Of a stretch of DNA of 64,000 nucleotides, positions 5,614-20,867 are shown piece by piece. Source of the stretch: Pimelobacter sp. (GTDB lineage: Bacteria; Actinomycetota; Actinomycetes; Propionibacteriales; Nocardioidaceae); the NCBI GenBank assembly GCA_002698575.1, contig NZZG01000084.1:20344-84343 (forward strand), in the 5' to 3' direction. A program made the translations under genes and the position numbers. The first letter of the stretch is position 1. Every line of letters begins with the position of its first letter. A model generated the notes under the pieces. That model was not told the origin of the DNA and searched no databases. It was given only the letters and a program-made list of their open reading frames with translations.

Positions 5614-7659
5614 GTGGAGGGCCCCAACGCACTGGGGAGCCGCTACGAGCTCGAGGAGAAGCTCGGGGTCGGCGCCATGGGCGAGGTCTGGCGCGCCCTG
5701 GACCGACGTAGCGGCCAGCGCGTGGCCGCGAAGGTGCTGCGGGCCGAGTTCGCCCGCGACACCGACATCGTCACCCGCTTCATCCAGGAGCGCTCCATCC
5801 TGATGGGGCTGACCCACCCCAACATCGTCCGCGTCCGCGACCTGGTCGTGGAGGGCGAACGCCTTGCCATCGTGATGGACCTCGTCGAGGGCGGCGACCT
5901 GCGGCACCACCTGAGGGAGCACGGTCCCATCGCCGCCGACCACGCGGTGCCGCTGGCCTGCGTGGTCCTCGATGCCCTCGACTCCGCGCACCAGTCCGGG
6001 TGCCTGCACCGCGACGTCAAGCCCGACAACGTGCTGCTCGTCGACGGTGACGTCGCCAAGCCCCAGAACCTCCGCCTCTCCGACTTCAGCATCGCCCGGC
6101 TCGCGCACGACTCGACCGTGCAGTCCACCGGTCTGCTCGGCACCCCCAACTACATGCCGCCGGAGCTGTTCCGGGTGGGCCAGTTCAGCGCGGCCTCCGA
6201 CGTCTACGCCACGGGGATCCTGCTCTACGAGATGCTCGGGGGTCGCACCCCGTTCGCCGGCTCCGGAACGGCCCACACCATGGGCAACCGACACGTCTCG
6301 TCCCTGCCTCCCCGCCTGCCCGTCTCGGAGCCGTTGTGGGCCGCGATCGAGCAGATGCTGGCCAAGGACCCGCGCGACCGGTTGCGGGCAGGTGCGACGG
6401 CGCGCCTGCTGCGCGGGCTGCCCAGCGACGCCCTGGGCGCCGACCCGCTCCCGCTCCAGCCCGTGCCGCAGGTGTGGGAGGACGTCGCCCAGACGGTCGT
6501 CCGGCGTCCCGCGCCCGACCCGGGTGACCCGGCGGAGTCGTCGGAGTCGTCGGAGCCGTCGGGCCGGTCGGGGGACGCCGGCGACCTCAGGCGTGTCTCC
6601 GCAGCGCAGCCGACCTGGCCGCAAGGAGCACCGGGCACGGATCCCGGCCCCGGGTCGGCGGCACGGACCACCGAGGGCGGACCCGAGCGCCCGAGTCCCG
6701 CGGCGACGCACGCGCGCCGGCGGGCGAGCGCGCCCACGCGGCCGCGCTGGATCCCGTGGGTGGCCATCGCGGCGGCCCTGGTCCTGCTCGGGGTCGGTGG
6801 CATCGCCTGGGCCACCGCACGGGGCGGGGACACGCCCATCGAGGACCCCACCGACGACCCGGTCGTCCGAGGAGGGGGTGCTGCTGCGACCGCCCAGCTC
6901 ACCGACACCACCTTGCCCCTCGGGCTGACGGTCTCGCGCTCGGCCAGCTACGACCCGGTGGACGGGTCCATCGACCTGACCATCGCCTACTCCGCCTCGA
7001 CCGCCCCCCTGACCGGCCCGTTCCTCGAGGTCTTCCCCCCGGCTGCCGACGGGTCGGGCTGCCCGCTGGCCGCGTGGGAGGGCCGCCAGCAGCAGCGCGC
7101 GTCCACCACGTCCTCGGGGGTGCGCAGCGAGTGCGCCGCCTATGTCGTCGACGTCCCGGCGCTGCCCGCCCAGGGACGCCAGGAGGTCGGCGTCGTCGTC
7201 TCGGGAGCCGGGCTCGACATGGCGGAGGACCCCGGCGCCCTGCAGGACTGGCTGCAGGACGTGTCCGCGGCCACCACCCTGGCCCTGGCGGGAGAGAGCG
7301 TGCGCGACGACCAGTTCCCCGCCCAGCGGGTGACCGGGGTGTGGCTCGAGGCCTCGCCGTTCAGCGTGCGGCTGCGCGAGGAGATCCGGGTCGAGGTCGG
7401 TCCGCAGTTCGTGACCGGGGAACGGGGACCCGCCTTCTTCGACAGCTTCACGACCTCGGGTGCCCCGTCGGGCTTCCTCCGACAGATCGCGGGCGGGTAC
7501 GACGGCATCCGGCTGAGCGCGTGCCCGGCGGTCAAGATCACCGCGCAGAACCAGGTCAGCGGCCTGGTGGGCGGGGGACGCAGCTGCGCGATCGAGGTCG
7601 AGGTCGGCAAGCTCCTCGTCGCCGAGGACACGGTGAGAGTCACCGGCGCCGGCAGCTGA
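5614..7659 (+). CDS. Transmembrane Ser/Thr protein kinase with an extracellular domain
   Basis: A 681-residue PknB-like (Hanks-type) kinase. The kinase domain covers about residues 10-275: glycine loop GVGAMGEV, ATP Lys40 (VAAK), catalytic Asp134 (HRDVKPDN), metal Asp157, then GTPNYMPPE and SDVYATGILLYEM. The usual DFG is DFS (Asp157-Phe158-Ser159), which is uncommon but keeps the essential Asp. A Ser/Pro/Glu-rich juxtamembrane linker follows, then one membrane helix at about 379-402, then about 270 extracellular residues with a few Cys and no PASTA repeats. The GTG start has AAAGAGG 6 nt upstream. It probably senses an envelope signal, perhaps with the two exported proteins encoded upstream; that partnership is inferred from position only. 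Confidence 0.9.
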   Translation: MEGPNALGSRYELEEKLGVGAMGEVWRALDRRSGQRVAAKVLRAEFARDTDIVTRFIQERSILMGLTHPNIVRVRDLVVEGERLAIVMDLVEGGDLRHHLREHGPIAADHAVPLACVVLDALDSAHQSGCLHRDVKPDNVLLVDGDVAKPQNLRLSDFSIARLAHDSTVQSTGLLGTPNYMPPELFRVGQFSAASDVYATGILLYEMLGGRTPFAGSGTAHTMGNRHVSSLPPRLPVSEPLWAAIEQMLAKDPRDRLRAGATARLLRGLPSDALGADPLPLQPVPQVWEDVAQTVVRRPAPDPGDPAESSESSEPSGRSGDAGDLRRVSAAQPTWPQGAPGTDPGPGSAARTTEGGPERPSPAATHARRRASAPTRPRWIPWVAIAAALVLLGVGGIAWATARGGDTPIEDPTDDPVVRGGGAAATAQLTDTTLPLGLTVSRSASYDPVDGSIDLTIAYSASTAPLTGPFLEVFPPAADGSGCPLAAWEGRQQQRASTTSSGVRSECAAYVVDVPALPAQGRQEVGVVVSGAGLDMAEDPGALQDWLQDVSAATTLALAGESVRDDQFPAQRVTGVWLEASPFSVRLREEIRVEVGPQFVTGERGPAFFDSFTTSGAPSGFLRQIAGGYDGIRLSACPAVKITAQNQVSGLVGGGRSCAIEVEVGKLLVAEDTVRVTGAGS

Positions 7660-9570: not shown

Positions 9571-11016
9571 GTGAGGCAGGCTTTTTTCGACGATCCGTCG
9601 ATCGTCCGGGAGACCTCTCTGCTTCCCCGTGCCCAGAGCGGCGCCCCGTCGGCAGCTCCTGCCTCCGCCCGCGCTGCCCGCCGACGTGACCGGCACCTCC
9701 GCGTCGCCGTCCCGCTCGCCGCGGCCGGCTCGGTCGCCCTGGCTGCCGTGCTCTCCTCGGCCGAGACCCGGCTCGCCGTCGTGGTCGCCGCGGCGGCCCT
9801 CGTCACGGCACTGGGCCTGCGCCACTCGTCCACCGAGAGCCGACTGCGCGGCGCCGCGGTCGTCGCGCGCTCCCTGGCGGCCCCCACCGCCTTCGTGGTC
9901 CTGGCCCTCGCCGTGCTCCAGCAGCCCACCCAGCTGCGCACCGAGCTCGCCGTGCTGGGCACGAGTGCCGCGCTCGGTGCCGCGCTCGGGTACCTGGTGG
10001 TCTCCGCCCGTCGAGCGGTGCCCCGCGTCGTGGTCGTCGGGGACGAGGCCGGCGTCGCCGAGCTCCTGGCCCGCTGGGGCAACGGACGCCACCTGCACGT
10101 CGCCGGCGCCCTGTTGCGCGCCACCGGTCCCCGCTCGCTGAGCCGAGGGGCCCACTCCGGAGCCCTCGGCGTCCCGCTGGTCGCCGGAGCCGCCGCCCTG
10201 ACCGAGTTCGTCCGCACCTCCGGTGCCGACGCCGTCATCGTGGACAGCCGTACGGCGGCCGTCCCCGGCGAGGTGCGTCGCCTGGAGTGGCAGCTGGCCG
10301 ATGCCCGCGTGGCGGTGCTGTGCGCCGGGGAGACCGGTCACGTGGCCCCGCGCCGCCTGGGCTGGACGGCGGTCGACGGCACGACGTTCAGCGTCATCGC
10401 CTCGCCCTCCTCGAGCGTCGCCCGCGCCGTCAAGGGCCTGGCCGACCGCGTCCTGGCCCTCGGCCTCCTGGTGTGCTTCGCGCCCCTGCTGGCGTTCCTC
10501 GCCCTGGTGGTGCGCCTGGACTCCCGCGGCCCTGCCTTCTTCCGTCAGACCCGGGTGGGCCGTGAGGGCACCACCTTCACCCTCCTCAAGCTGCGCACGA
10601 TGACCGTGGACGCCGAGGAGATCAAGCAGACGCTGCTCGAGCTCGACGAGGGCAACGGCGTGCTGTTCAAGATGCGCAACGACCCGCGGATCACCCGGGT
10701 GGGCCGGTGGCTGCGGGCCTCCTCGCTCGACGAGCTGCCCCAGCTGTGGAACGTCGTCACGGGAGACATGTCCCTGGTCGGTCCGCGACCTGCCCTGCCC
10801 GAGGAGGTCGCGGTCTACAACGAGCTGGAGCGCCGCCGACTGGCGGTCAAGCCCGGCCTGACCGGTCCGTGGCAGGTGAGCGGACGCTCGTCGCTGAGCC
10901 GCGAGCGCTCGATGCAGCTCGACGCGGGCTACGCCGACAACTGGCACCCGGCCGGCGACGCGCGCATCCTGCTGCGCACGATCGATGCCGTCCTGCTCCG
11001 GCGCGGTGCGTTCTAG
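9571..11016 (+). CDS. Polyprenyl-phosphate sugar phosphotransferase (WcaJ/WbaP type), starts EPS synthesis
   Basis: A 481-residue membrane protein. It moves a sugar-1-phosphate from a nucleotide sugar onto undecaprenyl phosphate, the first step of exopolysaccharide repeat-unit assembly. The N-terminal half has hydrophobic helices and a nucleotide-fold-like region (VPRVVVVGDEAGVAELL). The bacterial sugar transferase domain (PF02397) begins with a membrane helix at about 290-313, then RQTRVGREGTTFTLLKLRTM, DELPQLWNVVTGDMSLVGPRP (about 386-406), and KPGLTGPWQVSGRSS near the end. The GTG start has a G-rich Shine-Dalgarno about 8 nt upstream. It is the first gene of the EPS locus. The sugar it transfers cannot be told from the sequence. 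Confidence 0.92.
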   Translation: MRQAFFDDPSIVRETSLLPRAQSGAPSAAPASARAARRRDRHLRVAVPLAAAGSVALAAVLSSAETRLAVVVAAAALVTALGLRHSSTESRLRGAAVVARSLAAPTAFVVLALAVLQQPTQLRTELAVLGTSAALGAALGYLVVSARRAVPRVVVVGDEAGVAELLARWGNGRHLHVAGALLRATGPRSLSRGAHSGALGVPLVAGAAALTEFVRTSGADAVIVDSRTAAVPGEVRRLEWQLADARVAVLCAGETGHVAPRRLGWTAVDGTTFSVIASPSSSVARAVKGLADRVLALGLLVCFAPLLAFLALVVRLDSRGPAFFRQTRVGREGTTFTLLKLRTMTVDAEEIKQTLLELDEGNGVLFKMRNDPRITRVGRWLRASSLDELPQLWNVVTGDMSLVGPRPALPEEVAVYNELERRRLAVKPGLTGPWQVSGRSSLSRERSMQLDAGYADNWHPAGDARILLRTIDAVLLRRGAF

Positions 11017-12227
11017 TGGTGCGCACCGCAGGTCTCCACACCACTCCCGGGCGGGTCACGGTCGTCGCCGCGGGCGTCGTCGGCATGCTGCTCGGCGCCT
11101 CGTGCGGCGCCCCGGACGAGACCGGCGCCCCCGAGCCGACCACGGCCCCGTCGGGCGGACCGACCGCATCGGCGTCCCCCGACGCGACGGACGCGCCCGT
11201 CGGCGAGCGCGACGCACGCACGTGGCCCTACCCGGCGGACTCCATCTGGAACCACCCGCTCGGCGACGAGGCGAGCCTGGTGCCGTTCCCCGTCGAGCCG
11301 ACCGACGTCACCCTCGTGCCCGAGGAGGACCTCCTCATCATCGCGCCCGAGGCTCCGCTCCAGGACGTCTACGCGACCACCGCCGGCTGGGACCCCGCCC
11401 AGACGCGGTGCGGCTCGGTGACCGACGAGGTGCTCGTCGAGGACCTGCCGATCCCCGTGGGCTGGACGACCGACCCCGGCTACGACGGCACCACGCCGAA
11501 CCAGTCGACCGCGATCCTGCTTCCCGACGACACCCTGCTGGAGCTCCAGCCGTTCCACATCTGCCCTGACGGCACGCCCGTCGCCCAGTACGCCGCCCCC
11601 GCCTGGCGCGGCAGCTCGATCATCACCGGGGGCGTGCCCGGCGACATCGGCGGCGGCGCCCACGGCGGCTCCGGCCTGACCGCCTTCGGCGGCACCATCC
11701 GGCTGGGGGAGTGGGTGCCGGGAGGTCGGATCCGGCACGCGCTGAAGGTCACGGTCTCCGGCGACGAGCTGTCCTCGAGCGAGGGTGGCTTCCGCTGGCC
11801 GGCCGACCGCGCGGACGTGGACTGGGCCACGACCTACCTCGGCTCGGTCCCCGAGGCACGGATGGGGGCGCTGCTGACGCTGGGTCCCGACTTCGACGTC
11901 GACGCACTGAGCACCGAGCCGGCCCGGATCATCGCCACCGCGCTGCAGGAGTACGGCGCCTACGTCGTCGACGACGCGGGCCGGCGTACGGTCGCCTACT
12001 CCGTGGAGTGGGGCCCGCAGGGTCGCGTCACCGACGAGTTCGAGCAGGCCTGGGGATATCCCATGGCCGGGCGGGTCTCGGAGGCCAGCGGAGAGCAGCA
12101 GGGCTTCCTGGCCGACATGGAGCGCATCGACCTGGCACTCCAGGTCGTCGACGACAACACGGCCGAGACTCCCGGCGGCGCCGGCACGGCGCTGGCTCCC
12201 TTCGCGCCCCCGTTGGCGGTGTCGTGA
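11016..12227 (+). CDS. Exported protein of unknown function in the EPS locus
   Basis: A 403-residue protein I cannot place in a named family. The N terminus has a basic part and a hydrophobic stretch (VTVVAAGVVGMLLGASC). The Cys after LLGAS may be a non-standard lipobox; otherwise a simple signal peptide is possible. A Thr/Ser/Pro/Ala-rich linker (about 35-65) leads to a compact domain rich in Trp, Pro and Gly, with blocks such as DSIWNHPLGDEASLVPF, SSIITGGVPGDIGGGAHGGSG and GGFRWPADRADVDW. The position between a sugar transferase and a glycosyltransferase suggests polymer modification, polymerisation or attachment outside the cell. GTG 11016 overlaps the previous stop by one base (GTG 11019 is also possible), and its own stop overlaps the next ATG. 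Confidence 0.7.
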   Translation: MVRTAGLHTTPGRVTVVAAGVVGMLLGASCGAPDETGAPEPTTAPSGGPTASASPDATDAPVGERDARTWPYPADSIWNHPLGDEASLVPFPVEPTDVTLVPEEDLLIIAPEAPLQDVYATTAGWDPAQTRCGSVTDEVLVEDLPIPVGWTTDPGYDGTTPNQSTAILLPDDTLLELQPFHICPDGTPVAQYAAPAWRGSSIITGGVPGDIGGGAHGGSGLTAFGGTIRLGEWVPGGRIRHALKVTVSGDELSSSEGGFRWPADRADVDWATTYLGSVPEARMGALLTLGPDFDVDALSTEPARIIATALQEYGAYVVDDAGRRTVAYSVEWGPQGRVTDEFEQAWGYPMAGRVSEASGEQQGFLADMERIDLALQVVDDNTAETPGGAGTALAPFAPPLAVS

Positions 12228-13483
12228 TGCGGATCCTCCACGTCAACAAGTTCCTGCACCGTCGCGGTGGCGCCGAGGCCTACATGCTCGACCTGGCCGA
12301 GGCACAGCGCGCCGAGGGTCACGACGTCGGCTTCTTCGCGATGCAGCACCCCGAGAACGACGGCGACGTCAACGACGACCTCTTCCCGGCGCGGATGGAG
12401 CTGAACCCGCCGCCGGAGGGACTGGCGGCACGCGTGCGCACCGCCGGCCAGATCATCTACCGCCCCGACGCCCGGGCCGGCATGGACGCGGTGCTCGACC
12501 GGGTCCGTCCCGACGTCGTCCACCTGCACAACATCTACCACCAGCTGTCGCCGTCCATCCTGCGGCCGGTCAAGAAGCGCGGCATCGCCGCCGTGATGAC
12601 CCTGCACGACTACAAGCTGGCCTGCCCGACGTACCAGTTCCTCGACGCCGACGGGAAGATCTGCGAGGCCTGCCTCCCGGGGAAGTTCCGCAACGCGACC
12701 AGGAAGCGGTGCAACCAGGGCTCGCTGGCCGGCAGTGCGCTGGCCACCATCGAGCTGAGCGTGCACCGCGCCACGCACGCCTACGACGCGGTCGACGCGC
12801 TGATCTGCCCGAGCGAGTTCCTGAGGACGAAGATGGCCCAGGGTCGGGTCTACCCCGAGCGCCTGGTCCACCTGCCCAACTTCTGCGACCTGCACCAGAT
12901 CACCGCGGCCACGCAGCCCGGCGCCGGTGTCCTGTACGCCGGGCGGCTCTCGCCCGAGAAGGGCGTCGACGTGCTCGTCGACGCCGCCGCTCACCTGCCC
13001 GCCGGACTGCGCGTCACCATCGCCGGGGACGGTCCCGAGCGCGCGGCCCTGGAGAAGCGGGCCGCCGACCGCGGTGTGGTCGACCGGGTCACCTTCCTCG
13101 GCCGGATCCCGGGCCAGGACCTCCATCAGCAGATGCGCGACCACGCGGTCGTGGTCGTCCCGTCGCGGTGGTACGAGAACCAGCCGATGACCATCCTCGA
13201 GGCCTACGCGGCCGCCCGCCCGGTCGTCGGGTCGCTGCTCGGGGGTCTACCGGAGCTGATCGACGAGGGCGTCACCGGACGCCTCGTCACGCACGACGAC
13301 CCGACCGCGCTCGCCGCGGCACTGTCCGAGGTGGCCGGGGACCCGGCCGCCGCTCACCGCATGGGGATGGTCGCTCGGGAGCGCACCCATGCCTTCTCGA
13401 TCGACACCCACGTCCGCGGGCTCGACGAGATCTACCAGCGTGTCGTCGCACGGCACGTCGCAGCACCCAGGGGGAAGAACTGA
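12227..13483 (+). CDS. Glycosyltransferase family 4
   Basis: A 418-residue GT-B enzyme that probably adds a sugar to the lipid-linked EPS repeat unit on the cytoplasmic face. The N-terminal acceptor domain starts MRILHVNKFLHRRGGAEAY and holds the HLHNIYHQLSP block and a four-Cys segment (about 125-165) common in capsule/EPS members. The C-terminal donor domain has GVLYAGRLSPEKGVDVLVDA, the nucleotide-binding IAGDGPERAALE, and the EX7E pair Glu317/Glu325 in ENQPMTILEAY, which indicates a retaining mechanism. ATG 12227 shares one base with the previous stop (TGATG), so translation is coupled. Donor and acceptor sugars are unknown. Confidence 0.92.
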   Translation: MRILHVNKFLHRRGGAEAYMLDLAEAQRAEGHDVGFFAMQHPENDGDVNDDLFPARMELNPPPEGLAARVRTAGQIIYRPDARAGMDAVLDRVRPDVVHLHNIYHQLSPSILRPVKKRGIAAVMTLHDYKLACPTYQFLDADGKICEACLPGKFRNATRKRCNQGSLAGSALATIELSVHRATHAYDAVDALICPSEFLRTKMAQGRVYPERLVHLPNFCDLHQITAATQPGAGVLYAGRLSPEKGVDVLVDAAAHLPAGLRVTIAGDGPERAALEKRAADRGVVDRVTFLGRIPGQDLHQQMRDHAVVVVPSRWYENQPMTILEAYAAARPVVGSLLGGLPELIDEGVTGRLVTHDDPTALAAALSEVAGDPAAAHRMGMVARERTHAFSIDTHVRGLDEIYQRVVARHVAAPRGKN

Positions 13484-14709
13484 TGAGTCTCAAGATCGCG
13501 ATGCTTGGCACACGTGGCCTGCCCGCGTCGTTCGGCGGGGTCGAGCACCACGTCGAGCAGATCGGCGCACGGCTCGTGGAGCGTGGCCACCAGGTCACCG
13601 TGTACTCCCAGAGCCGCTACGGGGACGGCGAGCCCCTGACCGAGCACCTCGGCATGCGCGTGGTCACCATGCCCACCGTGCCGGTGCGCGGCTTCGAGGC
13701 GCTGTGCCACTCGGCCCTGTCCACCGTGCACGGACTCTTCCGCGGCCACGACGTCTTCCACTACCACGCCGTCGGTCCCGGGCTGCTCTCCCCGTTGGCG
13801 CGCTTCGGCTCGCGCGGGGCCGTGGTGCAGACGGTGCACGGCCTCGACGCCGACCGTGCCAAGTGGGGCGGCGGTGCCCGGTCGGTGCTCAACGCGGCCA
13901 CCTGGTTGAGCGCCCGCGTGCCCGACACGACCATCACGGTCTCGCAGGCGCTGGCCGACCACTACGCGGCGCGCTACGAGCGCGCGTGCGAGTACGTCCC
14001 CAACGGCGTCAACATGAAGCCGCGCCGCCACCCGCAGCTCATCCGGGACGCCTACGGGCTCTCGGGTCGTGACTACTTCCTCTTCGTCGGGCGGCTGGTC
14101 CCCGAGAAGCGTCCCGACCTGCTCCTCAAGGCCTTCGCGCAGGTGCGGACCGACAAGAAGCTCGTCCTCGTCGGAGGCTCGAGCCACACCGACGACTACG
14201 TCGAGGAGCTCCGCGCGCTGGCCGCGCAGGACCCCCGCGTGATCATGCCCGGCTACCTGTACGGCGACGTGCTCGACGAGCTGTTCACCAACGCGGCCGG
14301 CTTCGTGCAGCCCTCGGCCCTCGAGGGCCTGCCGCTGACGCTGCTCGAGGCGATGGGCAGCGGGCTGCCGGTCGTGGTCTCCGACATCGACCCGCACCTC
14401 GAGATCGTGGGACGGGACCGGGCCGGAGCCCGCGTCTTCCGCGACGGTGACCAGGTCGGGCTCACCGACGCCCTGCGCAAGGTCGCCGAGGACACCGCGA
14501 CCGAGAAGGCCTCCAGCGTCGCCATGCGCGACTCGGTGCTGTCGGTCTACGACTGGTCGGCCTGCGTCGATGCCCTCGAGGGCGTCTACGAGACCGCCGT
14601 GCACTCCACCCGCCGTCAGCGTCGCCGGCGCAACAGCAACGTCCACCAGCTCCACCGCGTCAACCACCACCTGGCCGGTGCCCGGTGCGACGAGGCCATC
14701 CACGCCTGA
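13483..14709 (+). CDS. Glycosyltransferase family 4 with a DUF1972-type N terminus
   Basis: A 408-residue GT-B enzyme. The opening MLGTRGLPASFGGVEHHVEQ is the DUF1972/rhamnosyltransferase-like signature seen in many EPS and rhamnan transferases. The acceptor half continues with VFHYHAVGPGLLSPLA and VVQTVHGLDADRAKWG. The donor half has YFLFVGRLVPEKRPDLLLKA, LVLVGGSSHTDDY and the EX7E pair Glu281/Glu289 (EGLPLTLLEAM). A basic tail (RRQRRRR, about 380) could help it stay near the membrane. The start ATG overlaps the previous stop by one base, with GGGGGAAG upstream. It probably adds the next sugar of the repeat unit; the linkage is not visible from sequence. Confidence 0.92.
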   Translation: MSLKIAMLGTRGLPASFGGVEHHVEQIGARLVERGHQVTVYSQSRYGDGEPLTEHLGMRVVTMPTVPVRGFEALCHSALSTVHGLFRGHDVFHYHAVGPGLLSPLARFGSRGAVVQTVHGLDADRAKWGGGARSVLNAATWLSARVPDTTITVSQALADHYAARYERACEYVPNGVNMKPRRHPQLIRDAYGLSGRDYFLFVGRLVPEKRPDLLLKAFAQVRTDKKLVLVGGSSHTDDYVEELRALAAQDPRVIMPGYLYGDVLDELFTNAAGFVQPSALEGLPLTLLEAMGSGLPVVVSDIDPHLEIVGRDRAGARVFRDGDQVGLTDALRKVAEDTATEKASSVAMRDSVLSVYDWSACVDALEGVYETAVHSTRRQRRRRNSNVHQLHRVNHHLAGARCDEAIHA

Positions 14710-14777
14710 GCGTGCCCTCGTCGTCCCTCTCGGGATCCACGCACCGAACACCGTTTCAGAACAGGAAAAAGCAACCG

Positions 14778-17700
14778 ATGAAGTCTCCCTCTCGTGCCTC
14801 GAAGATCGTGGGCGCCCTCGCGCTGGCGCTGGTCGCCTCGGCCGGCCTGGCCGTGACACCGCCGGCGCAGGCCGCGCAGAACGTCGTGGTCACCCAGCTG
14901 CCCGACCAGACCCACCCGCGCGTCCTCAACGGGCGGATCTACGCGATCGCCACCGCCGGCGACCTCGTCGCCGTGGGCGGCACGTTCACCTCGGTCCGCA
15001 ACGGCGCGGGTGGCTCACCCGACCAGGCGCGGCAGTGGATCTTCCTCTACAACAAGGCGACCGGGAAGATCGTGGAGTCGTTCAACCCGACCCTGCGCGG
15101 ACCCGCGCCGTCCACCACCGGACTGGTCGCCGACCAGCCGGGCGTGGAGGCGATCGAGTTCGCGCCCGACGGCAAGTCGATGTACGTCGCCGGCTGGTTC
15201 ACCAGCGTCAACGGGCAGTCGCGCCAGCGCGTGGTCCGGCTCAACCTCGACGGCTCGCTGACCGCCGGGTTCTCGGCCAGTGTCAACAACACGGTCAACG
15301 ACCTCGCGCTGACCGGCGGCCGGCTGATCGTCGGCGGGGAGTTCAGCAAGGTCAACCAGCAGCCCGTCGAGCGGCTCGTCTCCCTCGACCCGCAGACCGG
15401 CGCGACGCAGAGCGACTTCAACCTGCCGCTGACCGACTCGCGCGACGAGTTCGCGCCGTACCTGCAGGACATGGACGCCTCGCCCGACGGCAAGTGGCTC
15501 GCCATCGCGGGCAACTTCCAGACCGTCGGCACGGTGGCACGCAACCAGGTCGCCCTGATCGACCTCAAGCCCGGCGGCGCGGCGCCGCGCGTGGCCAACT
15601 GGTCGACCGACGCCTACAGCGTCGACTGCGCGCCGGTCTACGACGACTCCTGGGTCCGCTCGGTCAACATCTCGCCCGACAGCTCCTACATGGTGGTGGC
15701 CGGGACCGGAGCCTTCATCCCGAACACCCTGTGCGACTCCGCGGCCCGCTGGGAGCTGCCGCCCACGCAGTCGGGCGACCACCTCAGCCCGACCTGGAAG
15801 ACCCTCACCGGCGGCGACACGTTCTGGACCGCCGAGGTCACCGAGAGCGCCGTGTACGTCGGCGGCCACCAGCGCTGGGTCAACAACCCCCGGCCCTCGC
15901 CGGGCGGCGACAGCGACGGTCCCGGCTCGGTCGAGCGCGACGGCATCGTGGCGCTGGACCCGCTCACGGGTGCGCCCCTGTCCTGGAACCCGGGCCGTGA
16001 CCGCGGCCGCGGAGCCGAGGCGATCACGGCCACCGACGACTTCCTGCTCGTGGGCAGCGACACCGAGTTCTTCGCCGGCCAGCTGCGCCAGCGGCTCGCG
16101 CCGCTGCCGGTTGCCGGAGGACTGCCCAACCCGCAGCCGACGGCCGTGGACCTGCCCGTGACCCTCAACTACGTGACCGGCTCCCAGCTGCGCTCGGTCG
16201 CCTTCGACGGTGCGAGCTTCGGCTCGACGAGCCAGGTCCCTGCCTCGACGGGCATCGACTGGAGCGGGTTCCGCGGCGGCTTCGTCCAGAACGGCAAGCT
16301 CCACTACTTCGGTGCCTCGCAGGCGTTCTACTCGCGGCCCTTCAGCACCTCGTCCATCGGCTCGGAGACCAACCTGTCCAGCACGGTCGGCTACGTCGAC
16401 TACAGCGCCAACCTCACGCCGTACGACCAGCCCTACGGCGTGGCCGAGACCAACGTGGCCACCTACAACCCGACCAACGGGCAGATCTACTACGTCAAGA
16501 GCGACGGCAAGCTGATGAAGCGCGGCTACTCGCTCGAGAGCGGCATCATCGACGCGGGCGAGCAGGTCGCCTCCGGCCGGTCCTTCGCCAACGCGCGGGG
16601 TCTCGCCTTCATCGGTGACTGGCTGTACGCGGCCTGGTCCAACGGCGGTCTGTACCGCTTCTACGCACCGGGCGGCGAGGTCGACTTCGACAACAACGCG
16701 CTCGTCGACTCGAGCACCACCAACTGGAGCCAGGTCAAGGGACTCTTCGCCATGCCCAGCAGCGGCGCGGCGGTGCAGCCGACGAAGCCCGACTACAGCT
16801 GTTCCACGAGCCTTCCGTGGCGGGCCAAGTACTGGTCGAACCAGGAGCTCGACGGCGCGCCGGACAAGATGCGCTGCGAGGCCGACGTCAACTACAACTA
16901 CGGCAGCGGTGCACCTGCGGACACCAACCTGCCGAGCAACAACTTCTCGGCCAGCTGGACCCGCAGCGTCTCGGTGCCCGACGGCAAGGCCCTCCAGGTC
17001 ACCGCGACCGCCGACGACGGGGTCCGTGTCTACGTCGACGGCGTCCGCGTCATCAACGACTGGGTCGACAGCTCCGCCCGCACCCGCACCGGCACCTCCG
17101 CTGCGCTCTCGGGTGGTGACCACACGGTGCGCGTGGAGTTCTACGAGAACTCCGGCGGCGCCCAGATCCAGGTGTCCACGACGGTGGTCGACGCTCCCGC
17201 GGCCCCGCTCGAGCCGGACAACATCGCCCCGGACACCACCGTCTCGGGCCCGCAGCTCGACGACGTGGTCGCCAGCGGTCCGGTGACCTTCACCGGCACG
17301 GCGACCGACAACCGGTCCATTACGTCGGTGCGGGTGGCCATCTACAACCGCGACGACGCCACGAACCGGTGGCTGCAGCCGAACGGGACCTGGGGACCCA
17401 GCTACGCCTACCGCTCGCCGGTGCTCGCCGAGCCGGGCGTCGCCTCGACCACGTGGTCGATCGACATCACGCTGCCCGAGGGCAACTTCGCCGTGGACGC
17501 GGTCGCCGTGGACGGGGTCGGCAACGTCGACCTGTCCAGCGTCTTCCGCAGGTTCTCGGTCAACGACAACCCGGTGCAGGCCGACACCCAGGCTCCGGTG
17601 GTCGCGGTGACGTCCCCGGTCAAGCGGGACACCGTCCGGACGACGTCCTTCACGGCGAGCGGCACCAGTGGCGACAACCGCGGGGTCGACTCCGTGCGGG

Positions 17701-18608
17701 TGGCCGTGCGCAACCGGACCACGGGCGACTGGCTGCAGGACAACGGTTCCTGGGCGCCCGGCTTCGCCTCCCGCAATCCCGCGCTGGCCTCTCCGGGAGC
17801 CACCAGCAGCACCTGGAGCCTGCCGCTCACGCTGGCCACGGGCAGCTACGCCCTGGACGTGCGGGCGACCGACACCTCGGGCAACCAGTCCCCGAGCACC
17901 TACCACCCGTTCGAGGTCGACGCCTCGGCGCCGGACAACCAGGCGCCCTCCACGACGGTGGCCTCGCCGGCCAAGAACGCCACGGTGGGCAGCCCGGTCA
18001 CCTTCACCGGCACCTCGACCGACAACAAGGGCGTCAGCCAGATGCGGGTGGCGATCTACAACCGGGTCGACTCCACCAACAAGTGGCTGCAGGCCAACGG
18101 GACCTGGGGCCCGAGCTACGCCTTCCGCTCGGCGACCCTGGCCAACCCGGGGGCGACCAGCACGGGGTGGAGCATCTCGATCCCGCTGCCCGACGGTCTC
18201 TACGGCCTCGACGCCAAGGCCGTCGACACCTCGGACAACAAGGACCCGAGCTCGCCGTTCGTGCCGTTCCAGGTCGGCAACGACCAGGCCGCTCCGGTGG
18301 CGAAGGTGGCCAAGCGGTCCGCCCAGGTCTCGGGAGTGGCGAGCGACGACTCGTCGGTGCGCAAGGTCCAGGTCGAGGTCAAGAAGGCCGGCAAGGGCAA
18401 GAAGAAGTGGGTGACCAAGAAGGGCAGGCTGGCCCGCAAGTCCAAGACGCTCTCCACGACCCTTGCCGCACCGGGCGCTCGCACGAGCCGCTGGGCGCTC
18501 GGTCTCGACCTGTCGCCCGGGAAGTACGTCGTGTACGTGACCCCGGTGGACGGCACCCGCAACAGCCCCGCCAAGCCGCTGCGGAAGCGGATCAAGATCC
18601 GCGGCTGA
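14778..18608 (+). CDS. Large exported beta-propeller/PA14/Ig-repeat protein in the EPS locus
   Basis: A 1276-residue exported protein. A signal peptide ends near PAQAAQ (about residue 34). Residues 40-300 hold delta-60/DUF5122-like propeller repeats (VAVGGTFTSV, MYVAGWFTSVNGQSRQRVV, LIVGGEFSKVNQQ). A second propeller-like region runs to about 660. A PA14 domain (about 674-804; FSASWTRSVSVPDG, DDGVRVYVDGVRVINDW) suggests carbohydrate binding. Three similar Ig-like repeats follow (814-930, 934-1049, 1054-1166) sharing WLQ-NG-W-P and W-I-LP-G blocks. A degenerate fourth, Lys-rich, ends in PLRKRIKIRG. No sortase motif or membrane anchor is seen. ATG 14778 has AGGAAA upstream. It probably binds the polysaccharide made by this locus at the cell surface; that role is inferred. 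Confidence 0.8.
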   Translation: MKSPSRASKIVGALALALVASAGLAVTPPAQAAQNVVVTQLPDQTHPRVLNGRIYAIATAGDLVAVGGTFTSVRNGAGGSPDQARQWIFLYNKATGKIVESFNPTLRGPAPSTTGLVADQPGVEAIEFAPDGKSMYVAGWFTSVNGQSRQRVVRLNLDGSLTAGFSASVNNTVNDLALTGGRLIVGGEFSKVNQQPVERLVSLDPQTGATQSDFNLPLTDSRDEFAPYLQDMDASPDGKWLAIAGNFQTVGTVARNQVALIDLKPGGAAPRVANWSTDAYSVDCAPVYDDSWVRSVNISPDSSYMVVAGTGAFIPNTLCDSAARWELPPTQSGDHLSPTWKTLTGGDTFWTAEVTESAVYVGGHQRWVNNPRPSPGGDSDGPGSVERDGIVALDPLTGAPLSWNPGRDRGRGAEAITATDDFLLVGSDTEFFAGQLRQRLAPLPVAGGLPNPQPTAVDLPVTLNYVTGSQLRSVAFDGASFGSTSQVPASTGIDWSGFRGGFVQNGKLHYFGASQAFYSRPFSTSSIGSETNLSSTVGYVDYSANLTPYDQPYGVAETNVATYNPTNGQIYYVKSDGKLMKRGYSLESGIIDAGEQVASGRSFANARGLAFIGDWLYAAWSNGGLYRFYAPGGEVDFDNNALVDSSTTNWSQVKGLFAMPSSGAAVQPTKPDYSCSTSLPWRAKYWSNQELDGAPDKMRCEADVNYNYGSGAPADTNLPSNNFSASWTRSVSVPDGKALQVTATADDGVRVYVDGVRVINDWVDSSARTRTGTSAALSGGDHTVRVEFYENSGGAQIQVSTTVVDAPAAPLEPDNIAPDTTVSGPQLDDVVASGPVTFTGTATDNRSITSVRVAIYNRDDATNRWLQPNGTWGPSYAYRSPVLAEPGVASTTWSIDITLPEGNFAVDAVAVDGVGNVDLSSVFRRFSVNDNPVQADTQAPVVAVTSPVKRDTVRTTSFTASGTSGDNRGVDSVRVAVRNRTTGDWLQDNGSWAPGFASRNPALASPGATSSTWSLPLTLATGSYALDVRATDTSGNQSPSTYHPFEVDASAPDNQAPSTTVASPAKNATVGSPVTFTGTSTDNKGVSQMRVAIYNRVDSTNKWLQANGTWGPSYAFRSATLANPGATSTGWSISIPLPDGLYGLDAKAVDTSDNKDPSSPFVPFQVGNDQAAPVAKVAKRSAQVSGVASDDSSVRKVQVEVKKAGKGKKKWVTKKGRLARKSKTLSTTLAAPGARTSRWALGLDLSPGKYVVYVTPVDGTRNSPAKPLRKRIKIRG

Positions 18609-18647
18609 TCCCGCGCGTGACCCCGACCCGTGGAAGGGTGTGACGTC

Positions 18648-20867
18648 ATGACGCAGACGTCCACGCCGCAGGGGCGGCGACCCAGCCTGGCCCGCGACCG
18701 AGGACGCTCCGTCCTCGGCGCGGTCGTCAGCAACGTCGCCAACGTCCTGGTCATCCTGGTCATCGCCAGGATGCTGGGCGTCGGCGCGGTCGGTGAGTAC
18801 ACGCTCGCCTTCGCGGTCCGGGCGATCCTGCTGCTGGTGTGCGGCCTCGGCATGCGCACGGCCATGACCCGCTTCGTGGCCGCACACCTCGCGACCGACG
18901 ACCCCGGCGGTCTCCGGGGGGCGGTGGTGCTCGGCGTGTCCGTTCCGGTCGGGGTCGCGACGCTGGTGGCCGCCGGCTGGTTCGCCGCCGCCGACGTGCT
19001 CGCGACCTCGGTCTTCGACGAGCCCGAGCTCGCCACCACCATGCAGGTCGTGGCGTTGAGCCTGCCGTTCTTCGTCCTCGTCAACGTCGCGCTCGCCGCG
19101 ACCCAGGGCTTCTCCTCGATGCAGGCCTACGTCTGGATCGGACAGGTGCTCGAGCCCGGGCTGAGGTTCGCCCTAACGCTCCTGCTCCTGCTGCTCGGTG
19201 GGGGGACCACGGCGGCGGCCTCGGCGCTGCTGGCCGCCAGCGTGGTCTCGGGAGTCGTGGCGCTGGTGACACTGGTGCGGATGGTCCGCAGCCTGACCCC
19301 GGCGCCGCGGACGTACCCGGGCAGAGCCCTGGCCAGCTTCGCGGGGACCAGCTGGGTGGCCTCGATGGCGACGCAGGGTCTCCTCTGGGCCGACGTGGTG
19401 ATCCTGGGGGCGCTCGTGTCCACGGAGGAGGTCGGCGTCTACCAGGTCGCCGCCCGCGTCGTCCTGATCGGCATGTTCGTCATCACCGCTCTCAACGCCG
19501 CGGTGTCGGCGCGCATCGCGACCGCCTGGGTCCGCGGCGACATCGATGCCGTCGACGAGCGCTACACCGGGACCATCCTGTGGAGCTCGCGTCTGACCTG
19601 GCCGATGCTGGCCGGGCTGGTCGCCGTGCCGACCGCGGTGCTGCAGCTGTTCGGCTCCGGGTTCGGGGACGCCTCGACGGTGGTGCTCATCCTCGCGGTC
19701 GGTGCCGCGGCGGAGGTCCTCGGAGCGCCCTCGGCCGTGCTGCTGAACCAGATCGGGCGCAACGGCCTCAACCTCGTGATCAACGTGTCGTCGCTGCTCG
19801 TCAATGTCGGGTTGAACTTCGCCCTGATCCCCGGGTACGGCATCAACGGTGCGGCCTTCGCGTGGGCGTTCACCATGACCGTCGGTGCCGTCGTCCGGGT
19901 GGTCACGGTGCGCCGGGTCGCCACCGGGAGGTGGCCCTGGAGCCGGCCGCTGCTGGTGTCCCTCGGCGCAGCGCTCGCCGCAGCACTGCTGGCCGAGCTG
20001 GTCACCGACCTGCTTCCGGGCAACGAGTGGCTCAGGCTCGCCGTCGCCTCGGTGCTGGTGATCGGGCTGTACGGCTCGGTGGTGGTCCTGCGTGGTCTCA
20101 GCGGTGTCGAGCGCGATGCGCTGTCGCGGGCGATCGCGCTGCGGCTGCCCCAGCTGCGGCGCTGGCGCGTCCAACGCCAGCTCCGCCACGCCGCGAGCAG
20201 CGAGGCGCACCTGTCCGTCGACGAGCTGATCAGTCCGTTCCGGGCCGACGTGCTGGCACGGGCAGACCTCTTCCGGCTCGCTCGCGAGCACGCCGACCTG
20301 CGGGTCAACGACGAGGCGGGCTTCCTGCGGCTCGCCCGCGCCGGTGGCTACGGGGCGTGGTTCGACGAGATCCTCGTCCACAAGGGCCACGTGCCCGGGA
20401 CGGACACGGCCAGCCTGGAGCGCACCTTCCGTTCGATCGTCCGCTCGAGCCTGCAGCTGCTCGACCGGCAGGACGCGCTCGGGCGTGAGTCGCTCGGCAA
20501 GGTCACCGTCACCCGGGTGACGGCCGGCACCGAGATCGACGGCTGGAGCCTCGCCGAGGACCGGTGGGTCCTCCTGGACGGCGGGCACCGGGTCGCGCTC
20601 GCGGTCCTCGAGGGGGTCGAGACCCTGGCTCCCGAGGAGTACGCCGTGGTCAGCGGTCAGCTGCCGCCCAACAACACGGCTCGGCTGCTGGAGTCCGGCC
20701 GGCTGTCCGAGGGCGAGGCGGTGCAGTTCCTGGCGCGCGGGCTGGTGGCGCCCGAGGACCGGGACCGGGTGCACAGCTGGGGCCAGCTGCTCGAGTGCCT
20801 CGCCCCGGGGCGTCGCGCGGACGTCGAACGCTGGCCGGAGGTGGGCGCGGCCAGCGGCACCCGCTGA
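18648..20867 (+). CDS. Wzx-like flippase fused to a C-terminal domain with a ParB-type DGGHR motif
   Basis: A 739-residue protein in two parts. Residues about 20-485 form 12-14 hydrophobic helices of the MATE/MOP polysaccharide flippase type (VLVILVIARMLGVGAVGEY near the start; LNFALIPGYGINGAAFAWAF late), which would move lipid-linked repeat units outward. Residues about 500-739 are soluble and not part of ordinary flippases: LSVDELISPFRADVLARADLF, then a Ser/Leu-rich helix, then RWVLLDGGHRVALAVLEG with D644-G-G-H-R648. That matches the DGxHR core of ParB/Srx-type nucleotide-binding domains, sometimes seen as separate proteins in polysaccharide loci. ATG 18648 has GGAAGGG about 9 nt upstream; GTG 18630 is possible. 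It is the last gene of the EPS locus. Confidence 0.82.
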   Translation: MTQTSTPQGRRPSLARDRGRSVLGAVVSNVANVLVILVIARMLGVGAVGEYTLAFAVRAILLLVCGLGMRTAMTRFVAAHLATDDPGGLRGAVVLGVSVPVGVATLVAAGWFAAADVLATSVFDEPELATTMQVVALSLPFFVLVNVALAATQGFSSMQAYVWIGQVLEPGLRFALTLLLLLLGGGTTAAASALLAASVVSGVVALVTLVRMVRSLTPAPRTYPGRALASFAGTSWVASMATQGLLWADVVILGALVSTEEVGVYQVAARVVLIGMFVITALNAAVSARIATAWVRGDIDAVDERYTGTILWSSRLTWPMLAGLVAVPTAVLQLFGSGFGDASTVVLILAVGAAAEVLGAPSAVLLNQIGRNGLNLVINVSSLLVNVGLNFALIPGYGINGAAFAWAFTMTVGAVVRVVTVRRVATGRWPWSRPLLVSLGAALAAALLAELVTDLLPGNEWLRLAVASVLVIGLYGSVVVLRGLSGVERDALSRAIALRLPQLRRWRVQRQLRHAASSEAHLSVDELISPFRADVLARADLFRLAREHADLRVNDEAGFLRLARAGGYGAWFDEILVHKGHVPGTDTASLERTFRSIVRSSLQLLDRQDALGRESLGKVTVTRVTAGTEIDGWSLAEDRWVLLDGGHRVALAVLEGVETLAPEEYAVVSGQLPPNNTARLLESGRLSEGEAVQFLARGLVAPEDRDRVHSWGQLLECLAPGRRADVERWPEVGAASGTR

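Follow-up and report, generated by a model that had tools for sequence, protein, structure and literature searches.

The locus analyzed here raises the question of why a polysaccharide flippase should carry a long C-terminal extension with a DGGHR motif, and what such an extension may do. The window, that is, the whole stretch of 64,000 nucleotides from a Pimelobacter sp. contig that was analyzed, contains a single uninterrupted open reading frame at positions 18630 to 20867 on the plus strand, encoding 745 amino acids from GTG 18630 or 739 amino acids from ATG 18648. ATG 18648, with GGAAGGG upstream, is more likely to be the start than GTG 18630. Counted from this ATG, the DGGHR codons on the plus strand encode D644 to R648 in the C-terminal part of the protein, in agreement with the original prediction. 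The latter had described one gene for a flippase with a C-terminal domain, and had named a frame error that revealed two separate genes as one observation that would speak against it. No frame break was found, and such an error is excluded by the stop-free reading frame here and in the other genomes with the same fusion. The gene contains the following features, in window coordinates.

18648 to 20090, plus strand: flippase part, MOP/polysaccharide-transporter type (PF01943, MatE PF01554), with 14 predicted helices and the N- and C-terminus inside.
20100 to 20867, plus strand: predicted cytosolic C-terminal tail, an arginine-rich linker and then the DGxHR domain from approximately 20190 (homology to four other fused and two stand-alone genes; AF2 model).
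20235 to 20261, plus strand: P-x-R-x-D-x-x-x-R, invariant in 7 of 7 sequences and located where the domain is helical, towards its N-terminus.
20349 to 20363, plus strand: invariant Y-x-x-W-F (7 of 7 sequences).
20577 to 20591, plus strand: DGGHR motif, flanked in the model by a strand and a helix and placed where ParB has its GxxR phosphate motif (alignment, hhalign, AF2 model).
20673 to 20681, plus strand: N-T-A, invariant in 7 of 7 sequences, where the helix following the last core strand begins (helix from model residue 171).

The flippase part was matched by PF01943 at residues 28–291 (E 4.2e-20; 72.7 bits against a curated cut-off of 28.2) and by MatE PF01554 at residues 244–397 (E 2.5e-9, above the curated cut-off). 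It showed 14 hydropathy peaks, and the loops assigned to the inside contained 22 lysines and arginines (N-terminus counted, C-tail excluded) as compared to a single one in the loops assigned to the outside. Based on this positive-inside pattern, the tail of 258 residues that follows the last helix is predicted to be cytosolic. With a profile score above the cut-off and a predicted topology of 14 helices with both ends inside, where MOP flippases have 12 or 14, the protein is classified from its sequence as a MOP polysaccharide flippase. Thus, the term Wzx-like flippase in the original prediction was right in that PF01943 identifies a real polysaccharide flippase, but the 14 helices correspond to the layout of TacF and MurJ rather than to Wzx, which is described as a 12-helix protein (PMC13385700).

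To judge how widespread the extension is, we consider searches of several overlapping samples, all of them from the Actinomycetota. In the genus (Nocardioides), 7 of 215 genomes were matched at E <= 0.001, and five of these (G000, which is the genome of the window, G106, G257, G325 and G369) contain the same fusion, each as one stop-free open reading frame. The other two matches, in G265 and G151, were weak and unrelated on reading and were discarded. True matches were obtained in 2 of 245 genomes of the order sample, in 2 of 394 of the class sample, in 5 of 294 of the family sample, one of which has a stand-alone gene in another genus (G766), and in 2 of 396 of the phylum sample, one with a stand-alone gene in another class (G992); this genome was also the sole match among 219 genomes of its class. 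The total is seven genomes with the domain, five fused and two stand-alone. Matches in G213 and G014 (order search), G712 (class), G754 (family) and G1052, G541 and G886 (phylum) were noise on reading, and G900, G1075 and G905 from the phylum search were kept as distant DGxHR proteins outside the homologue count. No homologue was found in the plasmids, phages and viral contigs searched, and a search of the PDB by sequence or profile gave no match, the best reaching only E 2. One PHROGs family of unknown function was matched near DGxHR by three of six members (E 0.0054). The DGxHR domain family is thus very rare and dispensable for flippases in general.

Within the flippases, the tail is confined to one group. 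A search with the flippase part in 78 Nocardioides genomes yielded 12 matches at E <= 1e-30, which comprise four fused proteins and eight others. The fused proteins contain 204–272 residues after the last helix, as compared to 13–37 in the eight related flippases, and no DGxHR homologue was detected within approximately 10 kb on each side of the latter (best E 0.52). In a tree of 14 flippases, inferred from the flippase columns only and without the tail columns and the long G992 row, a branch with support 100/99 separated the five fused proteins from the others; the flippases of G766, with its separate DGxHR gene, and of G159, which has no such domain, grouped with them (100/99), and the term clade would here depend on the midpoint root. 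Judged by the tail lengths, the neighboring genes and this tree, the tail belongs to this flippase lineage.

The genes upstream of the flippase suggest in which context the tail operates:

9571 to 11016, plus strand: polyprenyl-phosphate sugar transferase (PF02397, E 3.9e-61), with an upstream homologue in three of the four other fused loci.
12230 to 13483, plus strand, start approximate: GT4-type glycosyltransferase (PF13692, PF00534), with a homologue in all four other fused loci.
13480 to 14709, plus strand, start approximate: second GT4-type glycosyltransferase (PF00534, PF13439), with a homologue in all four other fused loci.
14685 to 18608, plus strand, start approximate: large protein with DUF5122 beta-propeller repeats, PA14 and Ig-like domains (PF17164, PF07691, PF17957), probably secreted.

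The order of the two GT4 genes, the large DUF5122/PA14 gene and the flippase-DGxHR gene was common to all five fused loci, with the DUF5122 gene directly upstream of the flippase in each. The sugar transferase precedes them in four of the five, no homologue being present in the stretch taken for G325. The DUF5122 protein may be located at the surface and connected with the same glycan. A second DUF5122 copy is present nearby in G106 and G257 (at 11752–13770 and 17150–19030 in locus L012, and at 11647–14481 and 17852–19765 in L013). A Ser/Thr protein kinase gene (PF00069, E 1.5e-50) is located upstream of the polysaccharide genes, at 5614–7659 of the window.

The two stand-alone genes are found in similar surroundings. 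In G766, a DGxHR gene of 246 codons is located beside a homologue of the first GT4 gene of the window (52% identity), approximately 6 kb from a flippase that is 39% identical to that of the window. In G992, a sugar transferase and a flippase only distantly related to the fused ones are encoded on the same 20-kb stretch as the stand-alone gene. The statement in the original prediction that stand-alone relatives occur near glycosyltransferase genes was borne out in these polysaccharide loci, most directly beside the GT4 gene of G766. With the G766 flippase a near relative of the fused ones, the flippase and the DGxHR module occur both split, as in G766, and fused. Parts that are fused in one gene and separate within one locus elsewhere suggest a shared pathway.

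We then ask what kind of domain the tail contains. In the window, DGxHR occurred five times in the 91,072 residues of the six-frame reading frames of at least 100 residues. The motif on its own is weak evidence; it is the conservation that exceeds chance. The tail was homologous over its length in the four other fused genes, and the alignment of seven sequences displayed 22 invariant positions, including PxRxDxxxR, YxxWF, DGxHRxAL and NTA, even with stand-alone proteins that are only 25% identical to the window protein. The dN/dS ratio was 0.35 for the tail and 0.12 for the flippase in the closest pair, and 0.29 and 0.26, respectively, between G106 and G257. The estimates for wider pairs (window-G325 and window-G106: tail 0.85 and 0.92, flippase 0.59 and 0.52) are distrusted, the third positions being nearly all G or C. 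Three of the seven homologues (L006, L023 and L028) have DGCHR, with cysteine at the position of the catalytic cysteine of sulfiredoxin, and the other four have glycine or asparagine.

No Pfam or NCBIfam family matched the last 275 residues, and neither PF02195, PF08857 nor a similar profile matched the window protein or the six aligned members at E values up to 10. An AF2 model of residues 512–745 (numbered from the GTG), built from four sequences, had a pLDDT of 75.3 and a pTM of 0.73. Its second half consists of a long helix, two strands, the DGGHR motif with its helix, a strand and a helix; the motif is flanked by strand 134–137 and helix 142–149 (model numbering), and the model is mostly helical outside this core. 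In a search of the PDB with the model, ranks 1–17 were occupied by 12 chains of human sulfiredoxin, four chains of Caulobacter ParB and Atu1540, although the first 16 represent only two proteins and their unanimity counts for less than 17 matches would. Osa, another member of the ParB/sulfiredoxin fold, appeared at ranks 35 and 37. The best E value was 0.21 and the best probability 0.87, with none reaching E 0.001. In a viral structure library, 8 of the 50 matches listed were named ParB or sulfiredoxin (best E among those listed, 0.11).

The alignment of profiles pointed in the same direction. Against nine ParB-fold sequences from relatives, hhalign gave a probability of 16% (E 0.0016), with the helix-strand-strand-DGGHR-helix of the tail in register with the helix-strand-strand-GERR-helix of ParB. 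Against three stand-alone DGNHR/DGHHR proteins the probability was 93.5% over 42 columns, a partly circular result since these targets were found by the profile of this family. A second AF2 model, of the trimmed core of the G106 protein, had a pLDDT of 47.8. In the model and the alignment, the GxxR phosphate motif (Box II) is present on a predicted strand-helix hairpin, with G-x-H-R in all seven sequences. There was no clear equivalent of Box III (ENxxR); the invariant NTA, where the next helix starts, is at best a candidate for it, and this box is often absent in non-canonical members of the ParB fold (PMC12704722). The catalytic cysteine of the sulfiredoxin signature F(G/S)GCHR is replaced by glycine in the window, and Pfam and NCBIfam detected neither a helix-turn-helix nor a C-terminal dimerisation domain, the canonical ParB features, in the tail. 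Elsewhere, the genome of the window has a gene for a canonical-type ParB (G000 contig C30) and an orphan ParB-fold gene, L076, on contig C126 (PF02195, E 1.9e-6).

We consider it likely that the tail has a ParB/sulfiredoxin-type fold. The original prediction had proposed such a domain and a fold prediction as one way to check it. What stands of this proposal is the agreement between the fold search, in which sulfiredoxin and ParB rank first and unrelated folds begin only at rank 18, and the hhalign register; at a best E value of 0.21, no single match was significant, and no profile matched.

We tentatively favor, with somewhat less than even confidence, the reading that the tail uses an NTP and, at the cytosolic mouth of the flippase, either modifies the lipid-linked unit or licenses it. 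The 14-helix flippase would export a lipid-linked oligosaccharide, with the predicted cytosolic tail as an accessory domain with a predicted ParB/sulfiredoxin-type core. The tail would act in the pathway of the flippase, as we propose on the same lipid-linked unit. An NTP would bind at the DGxHR motif, and the tail would modify the unit, most likely by phosphoryl transfer as in SerK, SbnI and Srx, or license it. This step would take place just before the unit enters the flippase from the cytosolic side, after which flipping would follow. The single gene, the recurrence of the fusion, its conservation, the lack of the tail in related flippases and the split version in another genus were observed; the cytosolic side and the core are predicted, and we infer the NTP binding, the modification of the unit and its coupling to flipping. 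It is possible, if rather doubtful, that this would amount to nucleotide-controlled flipping, by a MOP flippase whose built-in ParB/sulfiredoxin domain uses an NTP to modify or license the lipid-linked oligosaccharide at the cytosolic mouth. Transporters of this class are otherwise described as driven by ion gradients.

SerK, SbnI and Srx are ParB-fold proteins that have no DNA-binding domain and carry out phosphoryl-transfer chemistry with ATP (or ADP); in ParB and Noc, by contrast, CTP serves as a switch (PMC12704722, PMC5120207). The same fold evidence would also suit a regulatory switch, in which the NTP-bound state gates the flippase or recruits the glycosyltransferases without any modification, like CTP in the ParB clamps. 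This alternative is conceivable but not probable. A fusion in cis suits a gate, and TacF provides a precedent for a substrate check by a flippase on the cytosolic side (PMC13385700). A gate fits less well with the stand-alone versions in G766 and G992, the latter with a flippase only distantly related to the fused ones, and the invariant residues outside DGxHR (W, Y, R, D and N) would resemble a substrate pocket more than a switch. An enzyme is slightly favored over a switch because of these conserved residues outside the motif and the free-standing version. Either role would have to be exerted at the cytosolic mouth of the flippase, which is where the tail, directly following helix 14, is predicted to be.

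It is unlikely that the tail is a lineage-specific helical domain with no kinship to ParB or sulfiredoxin, in which DGxHR is coincidental. The mostly helical model outside the core, the lack of any significant match to a named family by fold or by profile and the frequency of DGxHR by chance in this composition are what such a domain would display, but the fold search with its unrelated folds only after rank 17, the hhalign register and the weak profile matches to the three DGNHR/DGHHR proteins converge on one fold. Quite improbable, too, is a scaffold of ParB/sulfiredoxin shape that no longer binds a ligand and serves only as a docking site for partner enzymes. In a published screen, 17 of 28 purified ParB-fold proteins did not bind NTP (PMC12704722), and in the two closest relatives the domain evolves faster than the flippase; yet the presumed pocket has the same D, G, H, R and N in all seven sequences.

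The genes next to the stand-alone versions suggested that the domain might be a partner of PAPS-dependent sulfotransferases acting on a sulfated glycan, and that DGCHR might support chemistry of the sulfiredoxin kind. Each of the two stand-alone genes directly adjoins a Sulfotransfer_3 gene of the same strand, with a 1-base gap in G766 (taking GTG 9461 as the start), and Sulfotransfer_3 was found within 10 kb in five of the seven DGxHR loci; the DGCHR of three sequences resembles the sulfiredoxin signature (PMC4619093). In G992, the stop of the sulfotransferase gene overlaps the start of the DGxHR gene as TTGA (L035 9153–9156), suggesting translational coupling. This partnership was demoted and is very improbable, since all eight control loci of related flippases without the domain also have Sulfotransfer_3 within 10 kb, none is present on the contigs of the window or G369, the two abutting sulfotransferases gave no BLAST match to each other, are not orthologous and are not those of the fused loci, and four of the seven sequences lack the cysteine. 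Sulfotransferases are simply common in these polysaccharide loci; for wps-1 of Actinoplanes, a cluster from another actinomycete, the proposed product is a sulfated exopolysaccharide (PMC13390465).

How flippases tell finished from unfinished lipid-linked units is still being worked out, and here the transporter itself carries, as a fusion, a module that is a candidate for checking or modifying these units. Three natural states are available for comparison: the flippase alone (G159), separate genes (G766) and the fusion (the window together with four relatives). Provided that the fold assignment holds, the ParB/sulfiredoxin fold would extend into envelope glycan export.

The open literature, in which most subscription papers are not covered, contained no flippase with such a domain; this agrees with the original prediction, and the description as a new domain architecture of a known fold is provisional. 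A survey of ParB-fold proteins from 2025 describes fusions with several kinds of domain, including HTH, HNH, methyltransferase and CBS, and the word flippase is absent from its main text; it would have missed this domain because it was built on PF02195, which does not match (PMC12704722).

With SerK, SbnI, Srx, GmrS and Osa, the tail shares the placement of DGxHR/GxxR between a strand and a helix and the order of the core elements, GmrS having DGQQR and Srx F(G/S)GCHR at this position (PMC4619093). It differs from these proteins by its own invariant set (PxRxDxxxR, YxxWF and NTA), by the lack of recognition by Pfam and by the attachment to a membrane flippase. The actinobacterial stand-alone DGNHR/DGHHR proteins at L029 1138–1644 (plus strand), L032 949–2031 (minus strand) and L033 1165–2064 (plus strand) gave a weak match to the domain profile (E 0.001–0.007 per genome). 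They have a ParB-like look below the Pfam cut-off, with ParBc_2 at E 0.03–0.05 for two of them and none for L029. Only the DGxHR hairpin aligns, and their conserved blocks (RDFDxxFLP and others) are absent from the tail.

As a transporter, the window protein shares with other MOP/PST flippases (PF01943; TacF-, MurJ- and Wzx-like) the profile match, the 14 predicted helices and a locus that also encodes two glycosyltransferases and a sugar transferase, and it differs in that it continues for approximately 250 residues more than the eight related flippases of the genus. A functional parallel is TacF, the teichoic-acid gatekeeper, a 14-helix MOP flippase that passes only substrate modified on the cytosolic side and in which a groove formed by helices 13 and 14 lies outside the core. 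The discrimination by TacF takes place within its central cavity, and its description, in the passages considered here, includes no extra cytosolic domain (PMC13385700), whereas the flippase of the window carries a predicted cytosolic domain of its own.
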